DNA from: Tillus elongatus
Lineage: Eukaryota > Arthropoda > Insecta > Coleoptera > Cleridae
DNA length: 64,000 nt
Assembly: GCA_964006375.1 (NCBI GenBank)
Contig: OZ023265.1
Span: 13,627,993-13,691,992, forward strand
Reading direction: 5' to 3'
Shown here: one piece after another, positions 10,375 through 63,322 of the stretch
Layout: every line of letters begins with the position of its first letter
Position numbering within the stretch: position 1 is the first letter of the stretch
Translations under genes and position numbers: made by a program
Notes under the pieces: model-generated
Told to the model about the DNA's origin: nothing
What the model saw: the letters and a program-made list of their open reading frames with translations, nothing else
The model's database searches: none

Positions 10375-10614
10375 CTTTTATGCCTCCATTGACCTAAATA
10401 CACGCACGACATCTTTTTGATATGAAAAATTTAATGTCTTGATAATTTTTTATACGACGATTATCTTTGTTGTATTTTAGTAAGTAGTAGTCTGGTTTGC
10501 CAAAGTTGTCATTAAGTGTCACTTGACGTTTAGGTTAACAAGTTATTATTTTGAATAGGTGTAAGTGGTACACTTTATAAAATTGCAAAATTTTTTACTC
10601 TTTTACTTCTTATA

Positions 10615-11679
10615 ATGGAGTACACCTCAGAAGAGTATGCCGATATAATTTTTATCTACGGATATGCTGATGGAAATGCTCTAGCTGCTTGTCGGGAATA
10701 TCAACGTAGGTTTCCCACTCGCCGTCAACCTACACCAAGGGTTTTTTCTCGATCGTTTTCAAGACTTCGGCAGTGCCGTATTGGACAACGTCCTGACGCT
10801 AGAGCTAATGGTAGAAGACAACATCAACTTGAAGACGAAGAGAGAGTGGTGGATGCAGTGATGGATCAACCTTCTACAAGTACTCGGAGGATTGCCACGC
10901 AGTTACAATATTCTCAAAGCTTTGTTTGGAGAACTTTACATCGAGAAGCCTTACATCCATATCATCGACAGAATGTTCATTGCCTTTTACCTGGAGATAA
11001 TGTGCATCGACGAGTCTTTTGTGAATGGATGATGGAAATGAACAATCAAAATATCTTATTCCCTAATCTAATCTTCTGGTCTGACGAATCAACATTTACA
11101 AGAAATGGTATTTATAATTCTCATAATGAGCATGTCTGGTCATTGGAAAATCCACATGCAACAAGGACTCGCACATTTCAACATAGATTTTCCATTAATT
11201 TATGGTGTGGTTTTTTTAACGGCTCACTTTTCATAGAAGTCTTGCCACAACGTTTAAATGGATCTTCGTACTTAGCGCTCCTAGAAAACCGTGTAGAAAA
11301 CATTCTAGATGGCATTCCACTAGCAACAAAAGGTATAATTTGGTACCAGCATGACGGTGCGCCAGCGCATCATAGTATAAACGTTGTTACATGGCTACAT
11401 GAACATTATAATGAAATATGGATTGGCAGAACTGGACCAAGACATTGGCCTGCAAGATCACCGGACTTAAACCCACTTGACTTCTATCTTTGGGGTGCTT
11501 TTAAGCGACTGATCTACAGTGAACAAATAAATACACCAGAGCAGCTACAACAACTTATAAATAATGTTTTTCGTCATATTCAAGCAACAATGAATCCTCA
11601 AGACATTAAATTTTCCATATTAAAAAGATGCCGTGCGTGTATTCAGGCCAATGGAGGCATTTTTGAACATTTATTGTAA
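10615..11679 (+). CDS. Tc1/mariner-type transposase (DUF4817 + DDE_3), intact
   Basis: A 354-residue uninterrupted transposase expected to cut and reinsert its own element in the nucleus. Residues about 1-55 match the DUF4817 DNA-binding region (EYADIIFIYGYADGNA, then YQRRFPTRRQPTPRVF). A second helix-turn-helix region lies at about 85-110 (TSTRRIATQLQYSQSFVWR). The DDE_3 core runs from about 150: D157 in FWSDESTFTR, D247 in WYQHDGAPAHH, D284 in ARSPDLNPLDFYLWG, with 36 residues between the last two Asp. All three are present. Position 10615 is chosen because it is the first ATG of the open frame and is preceded about 35 bp upstream by TTTATAAAA, a TATA-like box. AATAAATAAA overlaps the stop. 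Good candidate for a recently active copy. Confidence 0.93.
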   Translation: MEYTSEEYADIIFIYGYADGNALAACREYQRRFPTRRQPTPRVFSRSFSRLRQCRIGQRPDARANGRRQHQLEDEERVVDAVMDQPSTSTRRIATQLQYSQSFVWRTLHREALHPYHRQNVHCLLPGDNVHRRVFCEWMMEMNNQNILFPNLIFWSDESTFTRNGIYNSHNEHVWSLENPHATRTRTFQHRFSINLWCGFFNGSLFIEVLPQRLNGSSYLALLENRVENILDGIPLATKGIIWYQHDGAPAHHSINVVTWLHEHYNEIWIGRTGPRHWPARSPDLNPLDFYLWGAFKRLIYSEQINTPEQLQQLINNVFRHIQATMNPQDIKFSILKRCRACIQANGGIFEHLL

Positions 11680-25663: not shown

Positions 25664-26482
25664 CAAAAAACGAACAATACGCTAATCTGCTAATTTAACT
25701 ATAAATGTTATTAATATTAAAAAAAGTGGAAACAACGCTCGTGCCTCGAATAAAGTCTTCCTTGTCATTTTATTTTAAATGAAATTTCCTTCTCCCGTTT
25801 CGCACCCGTTGAACACATTGGGCATAGAAAATATACGAATTTACTTAAAATTGTCATTTATAATGGAAGGAAAACAAAACTTGTTCTAGGTATGTCACGA
25901 AAAATTCACACAAAATAGAATAATTTCTAGATTCTAAAACCTACTGTGACTCTATAATGAAACAACGTTAAATGAGACGAAAACCATTTCAGGTTAAGCG
26001 ATCGAAGAATGTTTAAACAGTAAAATAAGCTTTCGTACTTAAAAAAAAAAGATTATTATAAGGCGTAATACAATAGTTTATAATAGTCCACGGCAACAGT
26101 ACATGTCATATTCAACTGACAAATTAATTTGGTAAATGTCAGATCTACTTTCAAAGTGACATGTAAATAAGTATTTTGTTTTCTGACATTTGTAATACAA
26201 ATGTAGGCATGCTCTTCTTCTTACATTCATATTTATTTGTGACCATCACAATTTTACCCATAGAGTTGGATACAATTTTAGTGACTTTTGAATTTTGAAA
26301 AGATTTCTTCAAATGCGCGTGGACTAGGCACCATAGAACCCATATCCGGGTTAGTTTCAGTTTTTATCTGTTTTCACATATACAGGGCGACGCGTTTCTA
26401 GGGAAAAGCTCAATATATCCGTTATTATGCAAGATATGAGAAAAATTTTTATATGTTAATTATACGATGTCTGGCGCTGCAT

Positions 26483-26549
<67 letters not shown>
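25664..26549 (+). repeat. Dispersed repeat carrying the uninterrupted (empty) target site, then L module and (TA)n
   Basis: From about 25845 to 26071 it matches 42465-42679; from 26072 to about 26487 it matches 47484-47905. It therefore shows the sequence that existed before the 4800-bp element inserted, with a single AATA at 26072-26075. The right part contains an L-like stretch (TTTTAGTGACTTTTGAATTT, GAACCCATATCCGGGTTAGT) and CAGGGCGACGCGTTTCT. The TA array occupies 26488-26549. A poly-A run lies at 26041-26050. Confidence 0.88.
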
Positions 26550-37083: not shown

Positions 37084-39731
37084 GGGGACGAATTAAGGAC
37101 TGCCAGAAGGGAGTTTAAGAAGGAACTGCGACGGAGTAAACGAGCTAGTTGGAGCGCGTACTGCGGGGAAGTCAACTCTCTGCCGGACGCAGCCAGGCTG
37201 GTAAGGGTACTCAAACAGGAGGTAGGCAGTAATGTAGGATCCTTAAGGAAACCGGACGGGAGCTGGACAAGCACCGGTGAGGAGACCCTACGTCATCTCG
37301 CCGAAGTTCACCTCGCGGGCGGTGGAGCCGTCACAGGGGTTGCTGACCTGGGTCGGTGGACGGACGCGAATGTGGACTGGCAGCTGGTAGAGGGGGTTGT
37401 CACGGATGGCTCTATAGCCTGGGCGGTGGGTGAGTTAGCTCCTTTCAAGTCCGCAGGCTGTGATGGGATTTTTCCGGCCCTACTCTAGAGGGGCCTGGAT
37501 ATACTGCTTCCTTACATAAGGGAGGTTTTTCAGGCCAGCCTGGCGTGGGGCTAAGTCCCAAAGGCCTGGCACCGGGTTAGCGGGGTCTTCATTCCCAAGC
37601 CGGGAAGGGAGGACTACATGCTGGCCAACGCGTACAGGCTACTCAGCCTTACATTATTCCTGCTTAGGGCACTCGAAAAGATAGTAGATAGGTTTATGTT
37701 GGGAGGTATCCTAAAGGATCACCCCTTCCATAAAGGTCAGCACGCGTACCGGCGGGGGAAGTCGACGGAAACCGCGCTCCATGCTGTGCCACGGAAGGTG
37801 GAAAGGGCCGTACACTACGGGGAGAGCGCATTAGCTGTGTTCTTCGATGTGGAGGGGGCCTTCGATAAGGCAAGGACGAATACGGTCTGTACCGCCCTAC
37901 ACGATAGGGGAACGCCGAGGTCCCTAATAAGCTGGGTGGCGAGCATGCTGGAGGACAGGAGAGTTTCGCTGACCTTGAGGGGCCGGGGGCTGTCCTCAGG
38001 GCAGCTGCCTTTCGCTCCATCTATGGTGTCTGGTCATGGACGGCCTCTTGGAGCGGCTCTCTGAGAATGGCTGCGACGCCCAGGCGTACGCTGATGATGG
38101 GCTGGTCTTAGTCACCGGCAAATTCCTCGGCGTCGTCTGTGAGTGCATGCAAGCTGCCTGTAGCATAATCGAAAGGTGGTGTGGTGAGCAGGAACTCTCC
38201 GTAAACCCGGCGAAGACGGAGATGATCCTATTTACCAAGAAGAGGAAGGTACAGGGGTTCAGGGTGCCCGTGATGTTTGGAAAACCTTTAGATTTAGTGC
38301 GGGAGGTCAAATATCTGGGGGTGATCCTAGACCCCAAACTAACATGGGGGTCGCAAATAGAACGAGTAGTGAGGAAGGGAGTAGCGACCCTCTGGCAACT
38401 GCATCGTGTGATAGGGAGGACCTGGGGACTTAATCCTCGGATCCTTCATTGGATCTACACTGCGATCGTCAGGCCGAGAATCCTCTATGGGGCGTTGGTC
38501 TGGTGGTGTGGTGTGAACCAAACTACCAGCAGGAAGCGTGCCAAACTCCAAAGGCTGGCATGTCTGGGTATCATAGGCGCCATGAGGATGACACCCTCAG
38601 CCGCGCTAGAAGTCCTGTTGATGCTGCCACCGCTTCCCATCTGCATCAGAAGGGAGGCTATGGCGTCGCATCTTAGAATGCGAGACTCGGGAAACTGGTG
38701 CGGAGAGGGAGCAGTAATAGGGCATGCAAGAGTCGCCAAGGAGGTGGAAAAGGAAATTCCGATTTCCGCCATAAAGGTGCGGGATGCCGAGGACTATATT
38801 AAGTTGACTAGGCCATACACCCTCAGGATCCCCAGTAAGGATCAGTGGAGGGAAAATGAGGTTGCATTACAGGCCGCAAGCCTGGTCTTTTTCACCGACG
38901 GATCGCGGCTGGAGGACCAACAATCCTCCGGTGCAGGAATATATATATCGTGGGCCTGGGGGTGCGCGAGAGCTATGCTCTTGGCGTATATACCACGGCA
39001 TTCGAAACAGAGGTGTATGCTATCCTGTCTGTGGCCAATAGACAGGATGTGAAGAGGAGTCCAGAGAAATGTCTGCTCGGGTAGCCAGGCGATCCTCCGG
39101 GCAGTCTGCGCGCCAGAATCAGGTCAACACTGGTTCAGGAGTGCGCTGAGGCCCTCAATGGACGAGCCAGGACGAAGGAGGTGCAACTGGTTTGGGTTCC
39201 GGGACACTGTGGCGTAGCGACAATGAGGTGGCGAATAATCTCGCAAGACTCGGTTCCCGGCGGCCGTTCTGTGGACCGGAGCCTGCAATAGGCATAAGTA
39301 GGAAGACAGTCTCTGTCGTCTTTCACAGGTGGACCGAGGAAGCAATGGAGAGGCACTGGGGGTCCGTTGGTGGCTGCAGGCGGGCGAGGGACTTCGTGGA
39401 GGGGCCGGACATAAATAAAGCTATCTGGCTACTCGGAAGGAGTCGACCTACGCTTCGCCGCATCCTTGGGGTGCTGACAGGCCACTGCGCCCTTAGAAGA
39501 CACCTCACATTGATAGGCGTAAAGAGGGATCCCATTTGCCAGGAATGCGTCGAGGATGAAGAAACGTCCTACCACTACCTGTGTGAATGCGAGGCTTTTG
39601 AGAGTCTTCGAGCAGAATTGTTCGGATCGAGGACTCTGCAGGGGACTCAGGTAAGTACCGTCCAATTGAAGACCGTCACGGTCTTCATCTCGAGGTCGAG
39701 GCGGTTTGGCGACGGAACCGAGGAAGAGTAG
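37084..39731 (+). pseudogene. LOA/R1-like LINE polyprotein: RT, RNase H, zinc knuckle
   Basis: Frame 1 (37084-37985): VRVLKQEVGSNVGSLRKPDG, FKSAGCDGIFPALL, SLTLFLLRALEKIVDRFM, HAYRRGKSTETALH, AVFFDVEGAFDKA (palm Asp). TAG at 37486 and TAA near 37552 interrupt it. A 1-base shift near 37985 moves to the frame with GCPQGSCLSLHLW-type motif, AQAYADDGLVLV (YADD intact), KTEMILFTKKRK, YLGVILDPKLTW, then RNase H beginning LVFFTDGSRLED. A further shift near 39210 leads to NEVANNLARLGSR, where the last RNase H Asp is Asn, and to a C-terminal CQEC...H....C knuckle. Dead copy. Confidence 0.88.
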
Positions 39732-42414: not shown

Positions 42415-42683
42415 TTTTTTCGAAAAACGAACAATACGCCAATCTGCTAATTTACCTATAAATTGTCATTTATAATTGAAGGAAAATAAAACTTGTTCTA
42501 GGTATGCCAGGAAAAATTCACACAAAATAGAATAATATCTAGATTCTAAAACCTACTGTGACTCCATAATGAAACAACGTTAAATGAGACGAAAACCATT
42601 TAAGGTTAGGGGATCGAAAAATGTTTAAACAGTAAAATAAGCTTTCGTAAAAAAACAAGATTCCTATAGGGCGTAATACAATA
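42415..42683 (+). repeat. Left half of the repeat that hosts the 4800-bp transposon
   Basis: Collinear with 25668-25700 and 25845-26075 (AAAACTTGTTCTAGGTATG, AGATTCTAAAACCTACTGTG, GAGACGAAAACCATTT). Ends with AATA at 42680-42683, the left target duplication. Confidence 0.88.
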
Positions 42684-42715
42684 CTGCCCTGCTATCTATA
42701 AATACCGTATCTCCA
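42684..42715 (+). repeat. Left terminal inverted repeat of the 4800-bp transposon
   Basis: Outer 11 bases CTGCCCTGCTA and inner 13 bases TACCGTATCTCCA, separated by 8 bases that differ from the other end. The bipartite pattern suggests an outer cleavage site and an inner binding site. Confidence 0.88.
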
Positions 42716-43429
42716 GTTAAAGTAGTTTTGAGAAATTCGCCATTGAAGTTTTACCAAACTAAATGACGTGTATCTTTTGCACTGTACTATATATTGACTT
42801 AATTTTTTTTGCATCAGTTCTAGATAGTGTTACACTATAGGTTCTGCTACAAGAAATAATAATAAATTAACGATTTCAGTATTTTTTATGGACATACGAC
42901 TTTTTTGTTAAATAAATTTAATTTTTTACTTGAAAGAAGTAACGTAAGTCCATGTTTTGAAAGCTGTTTAAACTAAATGAAATGCCTTTATAGAATAAAT
43001 GTTTTATTTATGTAAAATAAACATTGACACAACATATTATAACATATTATAACATATTATAAGTACGATACATTATTTTTTTCATGTACTCAGGTTTTCG
43101 TAGATAGCTAACAACAAAGTAAATACTAATCGAATGAAAGTTAACAAGAGTAGACACATGCTTGATCTAGAAAGAACTAACTATACTAATTTGACTAACA
43201 CAAGAAAAACAAAAAAATTAGTTAAGTTTAGATTAGTGTGATAGTATTATATAGTGATTTAGATTCAATCATTAGACTTTGCATGATTAGGAACAGTAAA
43301 GTAGTGGAAAATAGTGCATTTCACTTGACTCGTCGTAAGTTTAATAAATATAGAATCATATGTTTCACATATAAAAATGCCAAACTAAATTTAAGTTTAA
43401 CTAAATGAAACTCAAATAGAATACCATAT
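42716..43429. other. Non-coding 3' part of the transposon
   Basis: AT-rich. Includes three tandem AACATATTAT units (about 43035-43064). No coding. Confidence 0.5.
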
Positions 43430-44270
43430 TAAGGTCTAAATAGCCGCAAAGGAGGGCAGCAGCTCCTAAAATACGATACGCGTATTACTGCGGTGCAGAA
43501 AGCAACGGGAAGCTACTGCACTACATTCCCTAGTAGCGCAATCTCCATGGCCAACTTATGATTAAATAATGACAGACTATACAATCAAACCTGACATTTC
43601 ACGAGTCGGAGCGTGGAATGTCAGAACAATGAAACAACCGGGAAAACTAGAAAATCTTAAATTAGAGATGGATAGGTTGCAACTAGACGTAGTCGGTCTT
43701 AGCGAGGTGCGATGGCCTGAAATAGGTGACTTCTGGAGTGGTAACTACAGGATAATCCACACAGCAGCAAATGAGGGAAATGCAGGGGTAGCCATTATTA
43801 TGAACAAAACGGTAGGACGGAGTATGGAGAATTATGTGCAGAAAAACGAAAGAATCATTATGGCCAGGTTCAATACTAAGCCTGTGAAAACCGTAATCAT
43901 ACAGGTATACATGCCCACAACAAGACATGACGATGACGAAGTGGAAGAAATATATAGCGAAATAGAAGAAGTTTTAAAAATGGTAAAAAATCACGAGAAT
44001 GTGGTTATAACAGGCGACTTCAACGCAGTGGTTGGGGAAGGAAGATATGAAAATATTGTAGGACCCTTCGGTACCGGTAACAGGAAGCGCATATTGATCT
44101 CCGAGACTGGTACGAAGAGAAAGAGGGGTAGACCAAGACTGGACTATTGCTCTCAGATCGTGAGGGATGTTCGACGTTTAGGGAGATGTACTGGAAGGCC
44201 CAGGACAGACAGGCATGGAGAAGTGCGTCCAACCAGTCTTTAGGACTGATGACCCAATGATGATGTACGT
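43430..44270 (+). mobile_element. Internally deleted RTE-type LINE inserted in the transposon
   Basis: The 5' part resembles RTE leaders (GCAGAAAGCAACGGGAAGCT), followed by an endonuclease frame. The 3' end reads ACTGATGACCCAATGATGAT, the ATGATG-type simple tail usual for RTE elements. The RT is missing. Confidence 0.75.
43569..44243 (+). CDS. Truncated RTE endonuclease fused to the element's C-terminal tail
   Basis: A 224-codon open frame. Residues about 14-175 are the apurinic-type endonuclease of RTE LINEs: GAWNVRTMKQPGKLENL, LDVVGLSEVRWP (catalytic Glu), GNAGVAIIMNK, VIIQVYMPTTRHDDDE, NVVITGDFNAVVG (GDFN motif). From about 180 it jumps to GTKRKRGRPRLDYCSQIVRD and a C-terminal-like sequence that normally follows RT. 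So most of the RT has been removed while the frame stayed open. The start ATG at 43569 directly follows the leader. It could still make a nicking-type protein but not a retrotransposase. The 3' histidine motif of the endonuclease is missing, so activity is doubtful. Confidence 0.75.
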   Translation: MTDYTIKPDISRVGAWNVRTMKQPGKLENLKLEMDRLQLDVVGLSEVRWPEIGDFWSGNYRIIHTAANEGNAGVAIIMNKTVGRSMENYVQKNERIIMARFNTKPVKTVIIQVYMPTTRHDDDEVEEIYSEIEEVLKMVKNHENVVITGDFNAVVGEGRYENIVGPFGTGNRKRILISETGTKRKRGRPRLDYCSQIVRDVRRLGRCTGRPRTDRHGEVRPTSL

Positions 44271-44369
44271 ATAAAAAAAATACTGAAAACCAAACTCAAA
44301 CTCCCGTTTTTACAGAAAATAGGTCAATAAAGTCCAGTTTAATATCATAATATATTATAATAAAGTAAT

Positions 44370-46827
44370 TTACAGATCTTCTATATCAGTTATCAAGTTA
44401 GCAGCATCATCATTGACTGGCATGTTTTTCCAAAATTCTAATTTGTGTGCCGGAATGATGTCTGATAAATTATTTATGATGGCTTTTTTCCGGTTAGTCG
44501 TTATACCGCGGTTAGCACTTGAAGCCTCAGCCACTGGTAATTCATTCTTCTTGTATTTTGAAGATATGAAGTGAAACTCTTTTTCTTCTTGTTCTGAAAA
44601 ATGAGTCTTGTAAAAAAGATGCCTGTAACCCCTTTTTACTTTAACAAGACAAATATCTTTCAGCAAAGGTCTCTCATTGGTTTTGTTTAACTTCTGTAGC
44701 TGGTATGCGGAAGTCAAATCCAAGAAATTTCGAAAATCAGAATGTCTCATTTCCTTTATTATATTTTTTTTAGAGTTGCAATCCCGAACAATATTTACAA
44801 AATCCTGGAAATCGTAGACTTTAGGATTTTTTTTCAAGGCAAGCTCTACTTGGTGATGGAAGCTATCTGCCGACATGAATGTGTGCCCTGCCTCAAAATA
44901 TTTTAGGGTGATTGTGTTCGTACAAATTTCTTTGGAAGATATAATACTAATCAGCATCGAAAACAAACACCAGTTCTTATTCTGGCCCGCACAGTTATCG
45001 AGCCAGAGGGTAACTTCAGCAGCATCGCGGTTAAAAAGAAAAAACTGATAGAAGGTACTAGCCACATCTTCACGTTTCCGCCCAGAAATGCCCTCGTGCC
45101 ATAAAACTATGTAAGGTGGATTTTTTTTCATGTCTCCAACAGGAACAAAGGATTCATTGAATGCAATAATTCTCGTCGTAAATATTGCACTTTTGAACAT
45201 TTCTATTCTCGGAAGCATTATGACTTTTTGCATATCTGCCGAATAAATAGGATTTTTGCACTGTTGATTCTCACAATCCTTTCTATATTCACCTCGAGAA
45301 ATCTTTGCTTTCTGAATGTGTTCGTTCCATTTAACACATTTTTCACAATCTGGTAAGTGCAAATTTTGTTTAGTATGCTCTGAATTATGGAGGCGGAAAG
45401 CCTCACACTTTTCACACTCTTCTTGTCCTAAACGAGTAAAAGATATATTTATTGTGTCAGTTACTTCTTTTCTGTATACTTCATACGATACTTGTATGTT
45501 TGGATGCTTATCCAGGAAGTCTTTGTGCATTTGGGTTATCGTAATGTCACTAGGTAAGTAGAGTTTGTTAGGAGCGTGCTCCCTTCTGTAATGAGAGACA
45601 CAAGGAGAGAAAGACTTTATGTGAGTATGAAGTAAGTCACGGTTAATTTTCTTCTCTTTTGTTTTGGCTCCTCTTTGATCGTTTTTTGTGTAAAATTTCT
45701 CATCAGATATATTTTTCAATACACTGTCATTGTTAAATGCAAAACCTAACGTCGTCAAGAAAAACTTCTTACACACGCACTGAACTGCCTTATTCTCGTC
45801 TTTCAGCTTGTAACAGATGCTATTTTGTCTTTTGGAGTCGTTTCCTTTTTCACTTCGTCTTCTTTCTATAACTTTTACTTCACAATGGTTGCTGATAAAC
45901 AGTCGCTGTTCTTTCAGATTTAAATTCCAATAGTAATTGTTTAGCTCTTTTCTTCTCTCTTCATTAATTTTTGTAGTACATGCTTTCTTACACTGGTCAC
46001 AGGGAAGCTTGACTACATGTCTTTGTCTTTTTTTCTCAACTAAAAACTGGGTTCGTTCGTGCTTGGGTTTTAGATATTTCTGCCGTTTTCTCTTATTTCC
46101 AGATTTAGTATTTGTGGTATCTGTTAAAAAAACATCTGCTTCTAATAGCATAGTCGTGGTATCTTCATCGTTATTTTCACCATTTAGATTTTCATCATTA
46201 TTTGTTTCTGTTTTATTGAGCAATAATAACGAATTTTCCTCATTGACACTACTAGTGTTATTATTATTAGTTGTGTTTTCATTGATATCAATAACTATTT
46301 CTATTGAAACATCTTCAACGTTGTCTGGCAGCACCAATGGTTGAAAATCTTCGTCTAGAATAGGAATTTTATTTATGTCTAATTCTGAAATGTCAATCGC
46401 TATTGTTACGATTCCATTTAATATTTTTCTTATAAAATCGGACACTTTTTCGGTTTCCAAAAACTGTTCTCTTAATAATTCAAAATTAATTTCATGTGAG
46501 TGTACTTCAATAAAAAAGTAGCATTTGGTGATAGATTGACTAGCCAAAAAATACTTTAAAATTCCCTCGTAGTTCTCAGACGCATCATTTTTCCTTGTTT
46601 TCTTTTCAACATTTAAGGTAGTACTGTTCATTGGCGGTTCAGATTCAGATTGGAGTTTCAAAGAATTCCCCGAGTCATGACCGAGTTTCTGATTAACGTT
46701 TGCAGCCATAATTGCAAGCTTCTTTCCCCTCGGGATATTGATTATGTCTGCACGAAAATAATATAAATTATTAATACTCAAGTATGCTTGTTTATCAGAT
46801 TGTCTGCATCTTACCTTTGGAATTCAT
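44370..46827 (-). CDS. DUF7869-like putative transposase, 796 aa, one intron
   Basis: Function not proven; its place in a complete transposon argues for a transposase. Main exon 46747-44370 is uninterrupted, 13-nt 5' exon 46815-46827. Using the main frame's first ATG (803 aa) for numbering: acidic, Asn-rich N-terminus (160-220); basic NLS-like KSGNKRKRQKYLKPK (226-240); Cys cluster CDQCKKAC (261-268) and later CVCKKFF; zinc-type CX2C...H...CX2C (456-482); then a C-terminal domain with SADMQKVIMLPR (514-525), VLWHEGISGRKREDV (559-573), TLWLDNCAGQNKNW (591-604) and AGHTFMSADSFHHQVE (631-646). Conserved D516, D595 and D639/E646 are candidate acidic residues of an RNase H-type fold; this is inference. 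No frame break in 2.4 kb implies recent activity. Confidence 0.82.
46748..46814 (-). other. Predicted 67-bp phase-1 intron
   Basis: Donor GTAAGA at 46809-46814, acceptor TTTTCGTGCAG ending at 46748 (minus strand). Joining ATGAATTCCAAAG to ACATAATC gives M-N-S-K-D-I-I in the main frame. The alternative is the unspliced ATG giving MSINNLYYFR. Confidence 0.65.
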
Positions 46828-47210
46828 TATAAGTACAGTTAAATATTAAACGTATTTTGCATGCAATACCTAATAACAATAACAATATGTACATGTAGGT
46901 ACGTATTATATAAAACTTATTTCGTCTACTTTTAACACAATTGTGTGCAGCCACTAACAGCTTAAACGATACTGAGAGACGAGTCGAGACTGGAGAAACG
47001 ATGCAATTTCTATAGAAGATATTACAAAATGGAGGGGGAATGCTTGAATAAATCACCGCATGTTGGTTATTACGATATCATTTTGTAAACAAACCAATTC
47101 AGTCTTAGCTTTACATGTAAAATAAACCGTATGTCCGAGTATACAGCACATTTCACATGTATTTAACCACCTCTTGTACGATCAGTGCTTGTTAAAAGTA
47201 CCGTAAGTCC
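46828..47210 (-). other. 5' flank / untranslated region of the DUF7869-like gene
   Basis: Non-coding upstream sequence between the start codon and the iterated motifs. TACCGTAAGTCC at 47199-47210 sits head-to-head with the first GGAGATACGGTA, forming an imperfect 24-bp palindrome. The promoter must lie here or in the motif block. Confidence 0.5.
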
Positions 47211-47283
47211 GGAGATACGGTATTTCTCTTTAATGAATGATGGAGATACGGTAGTTCTCTTAAAATTAATGGTAGATACGGTA
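47199..47283 (+). promoter_or_regulatory. Iterated GGAGATACGGTA motif block next to the right end
   Basis: GGAGATACGGTA at 47211-47222 and 47242-47253 and GGTAGATACGGTA at 47271-47283, plus the terminal copy at 47453-47464. It is the inverse of the inner TIR motif TACCGTATCTCC. Such subterminal iterations usually bind the transposase; here they lie upstream of its gene, so autoregulation is possible. Only one copy exists at the left end. Confidence 0.75.
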
Positions 47284-47451
47284 AATCTTATAAGCATGTC
47301 GACTGAAATTTAAGTGTCTACACAAACCGATGAATATAAAATTGCATGTTTTGAAGCTTTTCCCTGCATATACGGCAATTTTACTATGTATCTTAGTAGT
47401 AAACATCTGTTAGAAGCCTAAGACACCCCTCAACTCAATTTTCATAAAATG

Positions 47452-47483
47452 TGGAGATACGGTAGTCTTGCTTAGCACGGCAG
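47452..47483 (-). repeat. Right terminal inverted repeat of the 4800-bp transposon
   Basis: TGGAGATACGGTA, 8 bases, TAGCACGGCAG; inverse of 42684-42715 with one mismatch in the outer 11 bases and none in the inner 13. Confidence 0.88.
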
Positions 47484-48034
47484 AATAGTGCATAATAGTC
47501 CACGGCAACAGTACATGTCATATTCAACTGACTAATTATTTTGATAAATGTCTGATCTACTTTCAAAGTGACATGTAAATAAGTATTTTGTTTTCTGACA
47601 TTTGTAGTACAAACGTTGGCATGCTCTTCTTCTTACATTCATGTTTATTTTTGGCCATCACAATTTTACTCATAGGGTTGGATACAATTTTAGTGACTTT
47701 TGAATTAGGAAAAGATTTCTTCAAATGAGCGCGAACTAGGCCCCATAGAACCCATATCCGGGTTATTTTTAGTTTTTATCTGTTTGCATATATACAAGGT
47801 GACGCGCTTCTGGGGTAAAGCTCAATATATCCATTACTTTACAAGATATGAGAAAAATTTTTATATGTTAATTATACGATGTCTGGAGCTGCATCTTATA
47901 AAATTATTTTTACAATCACAGGTGGCCCATAAGACGCTGGTGCTGCAATTTTTTTCCTAATCAAACACGCCTTATATTATTGCAATTTTTGCATTTTTTA
48001 TCGAAGGATAATGCATGTTTCTAAGAAAATAAAT
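47484..48034 (+). repeat. Right half of the host repeat, with L- and R-like text
   Basis: AATA at 47484-47487 is the right target duplication. Collinear with 26072-26487 (TAATAGTCCACGGCAACAGT, GGCATGCTCTTCTTCTTACA, GCTGCATCTTATA). It then continues with GGTGGCCCATAAGACGCTGG as at 16150 and 29850. Confidence 0.88.
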
Positions 48035-57764: not shown

Positions 57765-59017
<1,253 letters not shown>

Positions 59018-61437: not shown

Positions 61438-63057
61438 CTACACCAGCATATTAACCTCCACGACCCTGTGGATTACTTCACGATCTAGTCCAACTATCCA
61501 CTTTTTTAAACCGACTTTAAAACCTCGAAGTCCATGCTGCTGGCGAATTTGGGCTGGTATAGAATTATATATTCTTACGCAAAGGTAAGCATAGGAACGC
61601 TGTGCAATTGTCTTCCTAGCTCTTTCTGTTTTAGATGCGTGTGCGCAGTGTCTCGTATTATAGTTGTGACTCAACTCCTTCAATTCACATCGATGAATAT
61701 GCTGGTATACAGCAGCATTAAAGTAGAAAAGCTGCCTAATACCCAGCAGCTTTGTCTCAGTGTATAAAACATCCGTAGCATATGTGCGTTCTTTATCATA
61801 AATCACCTTGATGAGACAATTTTGAGCAATCTGTAATTGAGATATATGACACCTTGCAGCACCACCCCAAGCTATTATAGCATATCGTAAATGACTCTCC
61901 ACTAAAGAATAATATAGAGTCCGCAGGTGTTTGATGTGCAGCATCTCTCTCAATACTGCAAATTTTACCATCACAGAGCGAATCTTTTTAGTTACATTTA
62001 AAATGTGGTGCTCCCATTTCATGTGTGAATCTATAGTAACACCCAAATACACCGCATGCTTCACACTTTTTATCTTCATGCCATCACATATTTCCAAGGT
62101 GGTAAAAGTTGGCAAGTTCCTTTCGTAGCATGAAAATGGTAGATACACTGTCTTCGCCGCATTTACAGTCAACAATCGGTTTTGAAACCATTCCAGGATT
62201 TTTCGAAAATCCGATTCAACTGTAGATTTGAGTATATCCCACGATTCTGCGTTATAAAATATAGCAGCATCATCCGCGTATCCAACTATCTTTCCTAACG
62301 ATCTAACATAAAAAAGGTCGTTTATATAAATATTAAATAATAAGGGTCCTAGAATGGTTCCTTGCGGAACACCACAGTTCATTTTTACCACACCACTCAG
62401 AACACCATTCACACACATCACCTGATATCTGTCAGACAAATAGCTTTGTAAGAGCTGTTGTTGTCTTCCCCTAAACCCAATTTTCTCCAGTATTTCAAGC
62501 AATCTTGTGTGATCAACCGTATCGAATGCCTTTTTTAGATCCACCAAGACACACAATGAAGATCTGGTGTTATCCAGACTGTGATATATATTACTCGTCA
62601 GTTCAATTATGGCATCCTGCGTAGATGTCTTGGTCCTGAAGCTATACTGCCTCTCAGATAATAATCCATATTTATCGAGATAACCATCGAAGCGTTTTTT
62701 CAGGAGACACTCAAAGACTTTAGCAATACTGGAAATCAGTGATATCGGTCTATAGTTAGCGGTATCCAGCACATCTCCTTTCTTAAATAAAGGTTTGATA
62801 ACACCCATTTTAAAAGCCCTAGGGAATATGCCCTCGTCTATACACCGATTTATAATAAAAGTCAGAGGAGTGACAATCTCATCTATTATTCCTTTCAGTG
62901 TCTCTGCCCTTATTCCGTCGTACCCGGGTGCCTTGTGGTCCTTCAGTGTCTTCACAATTGATTTAATCTCATCCTCTCCTGTTCGCAATATCACCAAAGA
63001 CTGACTCACCCGCGCAGACGACACCAACTTATTGGAGACAGATATCCTGCTTGCCAA
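61438..63057 (-). CDS. LINE reverse transcriptase, 539 aa, uninterrupted
   Basis: RNA-directed DNA polymerase of a CR1/jockey-superfamily LINE. Visible motifs: DHKAPGYDGIRAETLK (40-55), AFKMGVIKPLFKKGD (81-95), NYRPISLISSIAKVFE (101-116), ERQYSFRTKTSTQDAI (135-150, usually QFGFR), VLVDLKKAFDTVDH (palm D173), GVPQGTILGPLLFNIYIND (229-247), VGYADDAAIF (catalytic D262-D263), LTVNAAKTVYLPF, YLGVTIDSHMKWEHHI, SHLRYAIIAWGG, and C-terminal HNYNTRHC..., RSYAYLCVRIYNSIPAQIR. No RNase H. The endonuclease that would precede it is lacking, and upstream codons hit stops, so it cannot move alone. The intact frame implies recent insertion. Confidence 0.88.
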   Translation of the reverse strand: MASRISVSNKLVSSARVSQSLVILRTGEDEIKSIVKTLKDHKAPGYDGIRAETLKGIIDEIVTPLTFIINRCIDEGIFPRAFKMGVIKPLFKKGDVLDTANYRPISLISSIAKVFECLLKKRFDGYLDKYGLLSERQYSFRTKTSTQDAIIELTSNIYHSLDNTRSSLCVLVDLKKAFDTVDHTRLLEILEKIGFRGRQQQLLQSYLSDRYQVMCVNGVLSGVVKMNCGVPQGTILGPLLFNIYINDLFYVRSLGKIVGYADDAAIFYNAESWDILKSTVESDFRKILEWFQNRLLTVNAAKTVYLPFSCYERNLPTFTTLEICDGMKIKSVKHAVYLGVTIDSHMKWEHHILNVTKKIRSVMVKFAVLREMLHIKHLRTLYYSLVESHLRYAIIAWGGAARCHISQLQIAQNCLIKVIYDKERTYATDVLYTETKLLGIRQLFYFNAAVYQHIHRCELKELSHNYNTRHCAHASKTERARKTIAQRSYAYLCVRIYNSIPAQIRQQHGLRGFKVGLKKWIVGLDREVIHRVVEVNMLV

Positions 63058-63322
63058 ATCATTATCCGTCCAAATAATTACCTCTCACAAAATCATCCAT
63101 TCTAAACAAGAATACAGGCACCTCACAAATCAATACTCACACAGACTAATGGACAAGAAGTGAACACAAGTTCGATGTTATACAAATAAAATCTACAAAT
63201 AACCGCCACTTATCTCTGAAACAAAAGCGGCAGCACAAAAATACACAGAGTATACAATCCTATAAATAACGAACATACAATTTTTTTTTAATAATAAGAA
63301 ACTTATACAGAAAACAAAGCTT

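Follow-up and report, generated by a model that had tools for sequence, protein, structure and literature searches.

The element and its boundaries

The window analysed here, a stretch of 64,000 nucleotides from the beetle Tillus elongatus (contig OZ023265.1), contains a complete DNA transposon of 4800 bp at positions 42684-47483, to which no strand is assigned and which carries a gene for a protein with the Pfam domain DUF7869 (PF25273). The left terminal inverted repeat (42684-42715, plus strand) consists of CTGCCCTGCTA, 8 nt and TACCGTATCTCCA, and the right one (47452-47483, minus strand), identified by comparison of the ends, reads in reverse complement CTGCCGTGCTA, 8 nt and TACCGTATCTCCA. 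The repeats are imperfect, matching at 25/32 positions (10/11, then 2/8, then 13/13), and the element is flanked on both sides by the target duplication AATA (42680-42683 and 47484-47487, both on the plus strand). When the flanks are joined without the element, they align unbroken, with 90.8% identity over 664 columns, to a second copy of the host repeat at 25830-26488 (plus strand), in which a single AATA is present at 26072-26075 and the element is missing. This copy is a paralogous empty site within the one assembled genome examined. The inverted ends, the AATA flanks and the continuity of the second host-repeat copy across one AATA had all been reported in an earlier note on this DNA, and each of them was found again here.

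The 11-bp outer motif has two matches in the window at up to one mismatch, a number reached by 15 of 100 shuffled sequences; taken alone in one window, it is unremarkable. The TACCGTATCTCCA motif has five matches in the window at up to two mismatches, all of them within the element, against 1.03 expected, and five matches were reached in 1/100 shuffles. A motif search places three of these copies subterminally on the minus strand, between 47210 and 47283 (47210-47222, 47241-47253 and 47271-47283, with 1, 0 and 2 mismatches, respectively). From their sequence, these extra copies are probable candidates for additional binding sites of the transposase.

The DUF7869 gene and its product

The gene lies on the minus strand, where exon 2 (44370-46747) holds an ATG frame of 779 amino acids (44370-46709). 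Removal of a GT-AG intron of 67 bp, predicted from the sequence (46748-46814), would join this exon to a predicted exon 1 (46815-46827; MNSK plus one base) and give a protein of 796 amino acids. The length of 796 residues given in the earlier note is thus valid if the intron is spliced, the ATG frame without splicing having 779. The N-terminal RGKKL, which depends on the intron, resembles RGRK[LM] found in two further families of this genome. The description of this gene as the only intact one in the element has to be amended, since a frame of 224 amino acids for an endonuclease of the long interspersed nuclear element (LINE) type is also open.

In Pfam, the window protein matches DUF7869 at residues 567-665 of the 779-residue frame (E 1.2e-7), with a score of 32 bits against a gathering score of 26 bits; one further match, to DUF3654 (0.016), is below threshold. 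Three catalytic aspartates are predicted from conservation, all with codons on the minus strand: D492 (45234-45236), D571 (44997-44999), located within DNCxGQNKN, and D615 (44865-44867), located within GHT-x(4)-D. In the model of 796 residues they become D509, D588 and D632. The acidic residues had previously been recognised with numbers seven too high, the pair given as D639/E646 corresponding to D632 and E639.

Copies in the genome and related families

The search of the genome with the ends of the element, which had been proposed as a check, was run on the assembly of 1.72 Gb in 30 contigs. The left end, taken as 757 bases, is matched at 39 places with 99-100% identity, and the right end likewise at 39, one of these matches being partial; they form 39/39 paired elements with both ends, the window included. 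Identical 4 bp are present on both sides in 38/39 copies, the single exception being a copy within a TA array, with TATA on one side and AATA on the other. The target duplications are TATA in 12 copies, TATT in five, AATA in four and AGTA in three, with twelve other types in the remaining 14. It is these copies elsewhere in the genome, with their perfect 4-bp duplications, that settle the reality of the element. The most frequent length is 4807 bp (20/39), and 37/39 copies measure 4794-4811 bp. The other two are a copy of 4146 bp (C1:160716746-160720891), with an internal loss, and one of 12,730 bp (C7:43304455-43317184), which probably contains a further insertion of ~7.9 kb. The transposase gene is full-length and free of stops in 31/39 copies, 20 of which have the top score. 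Because dozens of dispersed copies are near-identical, the data point to a very recent burst of this family.

A search of the genome for DUF7869 gave 1776 candidates, from which 150 were scored, and all 150 lie above the Pfam cut-off; about 40 of them, by our count, have a common frame of 773 amino acids. Twenty copies of this sister family were fetched; all 20 are elements of 3705-3708 bp that are bounded by CTGCCG...CGGCAG and flanked by perfect duplications of 4 bp. The reference copy of this family has an inverted repeat of 26 bp and is 99.84-99.97% identical to the other copies in the 13 of 19 full-length comparisons listed. The sister protein shares 44% identity over 752 residues with the window protein, and no further frame above 150 amino acids is found in the sister element. 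A more distant lineage of ~2.3 kb (L015, L018, L021) has GAAGGGGTCAGTGC-type ends with AATT adjoining on both sides; since AATT is palindromic, the end of the repeat and the target duplication are indistinguishable there. Two more multi-copy DUF7869 families, with frames of 854 and 531 amino acids, were sampled by one copy each (L105, L106), in which the ends were not found. In seven chosen representatives of the families of this genome, DUF7869 was matched in 7/7, and no other Pfam family was matched at E 0.01. Copies with different ends, a lack of 4-bp duplications, or a homologue embedded in a host gene with conserved synteny and no flanking repeats had been named beforehand as arguments against a transposon; no such outcome was encountered in the window family or the sister family.

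Bacterial relatives

An initial search of the genome collection, made with the window protein, gave no relatives. The DNA pattern for DNCxGQNKN was found in 12 stretches of the same collection. By tblastn, 11 of these code for proteins related to that of the window (E 2e-9 to 7.5e-4); the remaining one, L006, was discarded as a chance match with a frame of 41 amino acids. Such bacterial relatives had not been anticipated by the earlier note. A DUF7869 match above cut-off is present in all 11 genomes with relatives. The nine bacterial-contig proteins that were scanned pass the DUF7869 model of Pfam, with 52.8-88.9 bits for eight of them and 37.2 for L004, and none of the NCBIfam models reaches its cut-off on these nine.

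Uninterrupted frames of 635-668 amino acids are found in 7/11 cases, the other four being shorter or cut off. Inverted repeats of 36-61 bp frame 7/11 genes and define elements of 2.0-2.7 kb, whose ends are mostly TGGGG...; two of the repeat pairs are perfect (43/43 and 36/36). Genes enclosed in this manner look like insertion sequences. An identical 4-mer just outside the TGG end was found in 0/7 elements, and the outer limits of these bacterial elements are therefore uncertain. In L009, TTATGA is present 2-3 bases further out, which was excluded from the duplication count. Homology between the terminal repeats of bacterial and host elements was considered and rejected, the shuffle fractions ranging from 0.008 to 0.968 over 28 local alignments. 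By eye, ACGTACCTATC resembles TACCGTATCTCCA; no homology is claimed.

The relative L007 lies on a contig of 147,846 bp labelled as Desulfocicer vacuolatum DSM 3385, and L014 lies on a contig of 48,122 bp, where it adjoins GAF-domain and ParA/response-regulator genes. At 4065-4595 of L007, the left end of the Desulfocicer element appears by eye to interrupt an integrase-like frame that belongs to a different insertion sequence, and no obvious continuation of this frame is seen in the right flank. The family is rare: it was found in 1/395 genomes from the phylum of the genome of L007, namely that genome itself, and in 7/389 genomes from its order, five of them previously found and two new. More divergent bacterial DUF7869 proteins, L145 (G720; MDNGPTNKN) and L147 (G541; ADNCRGHNKN), widen the family; no usable ends were recovered for them and, together with L146 (the same gene as L003), they were left out of the alignment and tree described below. 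No match was obtained in viral contigs with the window protein, with the strict motif or with the alignment, nor in plasmids and phages with the bacterial proteins. Two viral contigs with a match to a looser motif were rejected, as their large frames are without similarity.

Homology, catalytic residues and fold

The comparison of a profile of seven proteins of the genome with a profile of eight of the 11 bacterial-contig proteins (the fragments L004, L008 and L011 being omitted) gave a probability of 99.9 and an E-value of 4.9e-33 over 474 columns, and the homology runs from the N-terminal cysteine cluster through the core. In an alignment of 18 proteins, one row of which is without the first region, D492 is conserved in 17/17 rows, D571 in 18/18 and D615 in 18/18. 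The residue E622 (E639 in the model of 796 residues) is glutamate in the 7/7 genome rows and lysine or arginine in the 11/11 bacterial-contig rows. Since the three aspartates are invariant and the glutamate is replaced in the bacterial set, the catalytic triad is predicted to be DDD. With respect to the pair of candidates proposed in the earlier note for the third position, the aspartate (D632) is kept in all aligned relatives, and the glutamate is accordingly rejected. In an unrooted FastTree tree of the 18 proteins, which gives no indication of the direction of transfer, the seven genome proteins group in a single clade (support 1.0) that includes none of the 11 bacterial-contig proteins. 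The structure model of one bacterial relative has RNase H topology, with the third aspartate placed in a stretch of low confidence, and the 50 structural matches listed for this model are DDE-type recombinases. It is very likely that DUF7869 corresponds to the core of a transposase.

Proposed mechanism and alternative explanations

We consider it highly probable that the element of the window is an autonomous cut-and-paste DNA transposon, encoding its own DUF7869 transposase of 796 amino acids. The earlier note had taken the DUF7869 protein for the transposase and had suggested that the domain could be the mark of a transposon superfamily. Both proposals are well substantiated by the numerous copies, by the exact ends and 4-bp duplications seen in two families, by the intact frames, by the RNase H-type model of a relative and by the invariant DDD. 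We propose that the N-terminal cysteine clusters would bind the ends of the element, and that the RNase H-like core now filed as DUF7869 would carry the triad D492/D571/D615. A multimer of the transposase may assemble on the CTGCC...TACCGTATCTCCA ends and on the extra subterminal copies, and both ends would then be cut by the DDD centre, leading to excision. The free ends would be joined to the strands of the target at points 4 bp apart, within a palindrome-like and AT-rich W-A-T-W site, and gap repair would produce the 4-bp duplication.

It could be argued that the element is moved in trans by another transposase, with the DUF7869 protein as a passenger or second protein, and the endonuclease frame within the element does show that passengers occur. 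This explanation appears very improbable: the sister element has no other large frame, the bacterial frames of 635-668 amino acids leave little space for another gene within elements of 2.0-2.7 kb, and the frame is intact in 31/39 copies of the window family. In addition, the protein has the acidic residues of a transposase, and its relative has a predicted transposase fold. A different objection concerns the cross-domain link, which would be false if the bacterial matches resulted from animal contamination of metagenome bins. It may be pointed out in this sense that nine of the 11 matching contigs are short (3.1-8.1 kb), such as that of L004 from a sponge-symbiont bin, so that such an origin is conceivable for these nine, and that the family is rare in bacteria, as the counts for the phylum and the order indicate. 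We nevertheless regard contamination as unlikely, given the long contig of Desulfocicer, the position of L014 among bacterial genes, the seven uninterrupted frames and the separation of the seven genome proteins from all 11 bacterial-contig proteins in the tree.

Other features of the window

The LINE-type endonuclease frame (Exo_endo_phos, 224 amino acids) is nested in the element as a passenger at 43569-44243 on the plus strand. The lengths of 37/39 copies, 4794-4811 bp, imply that nearly all of them carry this frame; its capture would thus have preceded the burst, in which it was amplified as a passenger. Several other remains of mobile elements are present in the window. A piggyBac-like transposase fragment lies at 750-1742 on the minus strand (DDE_Tnp_1_7, E 2e-42). 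Frames with DUF4817 helix-turn-helix domains, at 10555-11679 (plus strand) and 57941-58597 (minus strand), are Tc1/mariner-like remains, one of them having a sub-threshold DDE_3 match and one a match to HTH_Tnp_Tc3_2. The RVT_1 reverse transcriptase frames at 37979-39052 (plus strand) and 61438-63084 (minus strand) probably belong to non-LTR elements.

Significance

DUF7869 is filed as a domain of unknown function, and here it very likely represents the catalytic core of a DDD transposase that was recently, and perhaps is still, active. DUF7869 proteins in animal annotations should thus be suspected of transposon origin. The present analysis contributes evidence at the sequence level that places DUF7869 in a transposon family of recent activity, whose bacterial relatives resemble insertion sequences, and it corrects the triad to DDD. 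With 31 intact, near-identical copies, exact ends and a known target rule, the window family is a good candidate for experiments, and the bacterial elements, whose enzyme is related, offer a small system for the study of the mechanism and of a possible cross-domain origin. If the superfamily were new, it would constitute an additional prokaryote-eukaryote pair, a class of 'uncharacterised' proteins would become transposases, and the element could be considered for development into a new vector for gene transfer.

Comparison with known transposon superfamilies

Ginger and other integrase-like transposons are defined by the rve integrase domain, which was not matched in 7/7 DUF7869 proteins of the genome at E 0.01. 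Sola3 elements have TTAA as target and differ in this respect from the family described here, in which 0/38 target duplications are TTAA. The same count sets the family apart from Kolobok and piggyBac, whose target is given as TTAA in PMC9587614. According to PMC10045372, piggyBac/IS1380 elements share duplications of 4 bp with ours but have CC..GG ends; DDE_Tnp_1_7 gave no match on DUF7869 proteins, although it does match the piggyBac-like frame of the window. ISAzo13/Zator (PF07592) has in common with these elements a DDE-type recombinase and the existence of a prokaryote-eukaryote pair, but its duplications are of 3 bp (PMC10045372), compared with 4 bp here. PF07592 is sub-threshold on 2/9 bacterial-contig proteins (E 0.018 and 0.13; 14.5 bits against a cut-off of 26.9) and gave no match on the window protein. 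Tc1/mariner (Mos1) differs by the duplication of TA, generally of 2 bp (PMC10045372), by the lack of a sequence match to the window protein and by the larger size of the protein described here.

One may conceive of a superfamily as yet unnamed in animals, with a likewise unnamed counterpart among bacterial insertion sequences, a proposition that we regard as tentative. It is consistent with the fact that no Pfam DDE model except DUF7869 reaches its cut-off, as with the NCBIfam models on the nine bacterial-contig proteins; in open-licence papers DUF7869 was not found, and the letters GQNKN occur in five of them, all on other subjects as judged by title and abstract. It is weakened by the coincidence of its features with those of Sola. 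DUF7869 would then possibly be a DDD superfamily common to animals and bacteria and absent from both Repbase and ISfinder. Its bacterial members would be rare insertion sequences, 2.0-2.7 kb long and framed by the inverted repeats of 36-61 bp, and the animal genome studied would contain several families side by side, no fewer than two of which had undergone a very recent burst.

The earlier note had named Sola as the first group with which a link should be examined, on account of its 4-bp duplications. Membership of this superfamily, in a Sola1- or Sola2-like form, with DUF7869 being a different name for the core of the Sola transposase, seems to us rather probable from the published descriptions. 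The paper of 2009 that named Sola is said to give the same features as those listed hereafter. In two later sources, Sola is presented as a DDD transposase with 4-bp duplications, found in bacteria and metazoans, most elements having 2-9 kb and inverted repeats of 11-1124 bp (PMC10741241), and in slime moulds the 4-bp duplications of Sola2 are AT-rich, its inverted repeats measure 12-21 bp and its transposase has 888 amino acids (PMC3627910); these printed features all fit the DDD and the 4-bp duplications found here. Several points weigh against this assignment. The likeness is one of printed features, and the target of slime-mould Sola2, AWWT, is similar but not identical to the WATW found here. 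The prokaryote-eukaryote pairs listed in a passage of PMC10045372 are mariner/IS630, piggyBac/IS1380, Merlin/IS1016, Zator/ISAzo13, MuDR/IS256 and Harbinger/IS5, with no Sola pair named there. The elements described here differ from Sola in that no 4-bp duplications were found at the seven bacterial elements, and have in common with it, as described in PMC10741241 and PMC3627910, the DDD triad, AT-rich 4-bp duplications, the range of lengths, variable inverted ends and an occurrence in both bacteria and animals.
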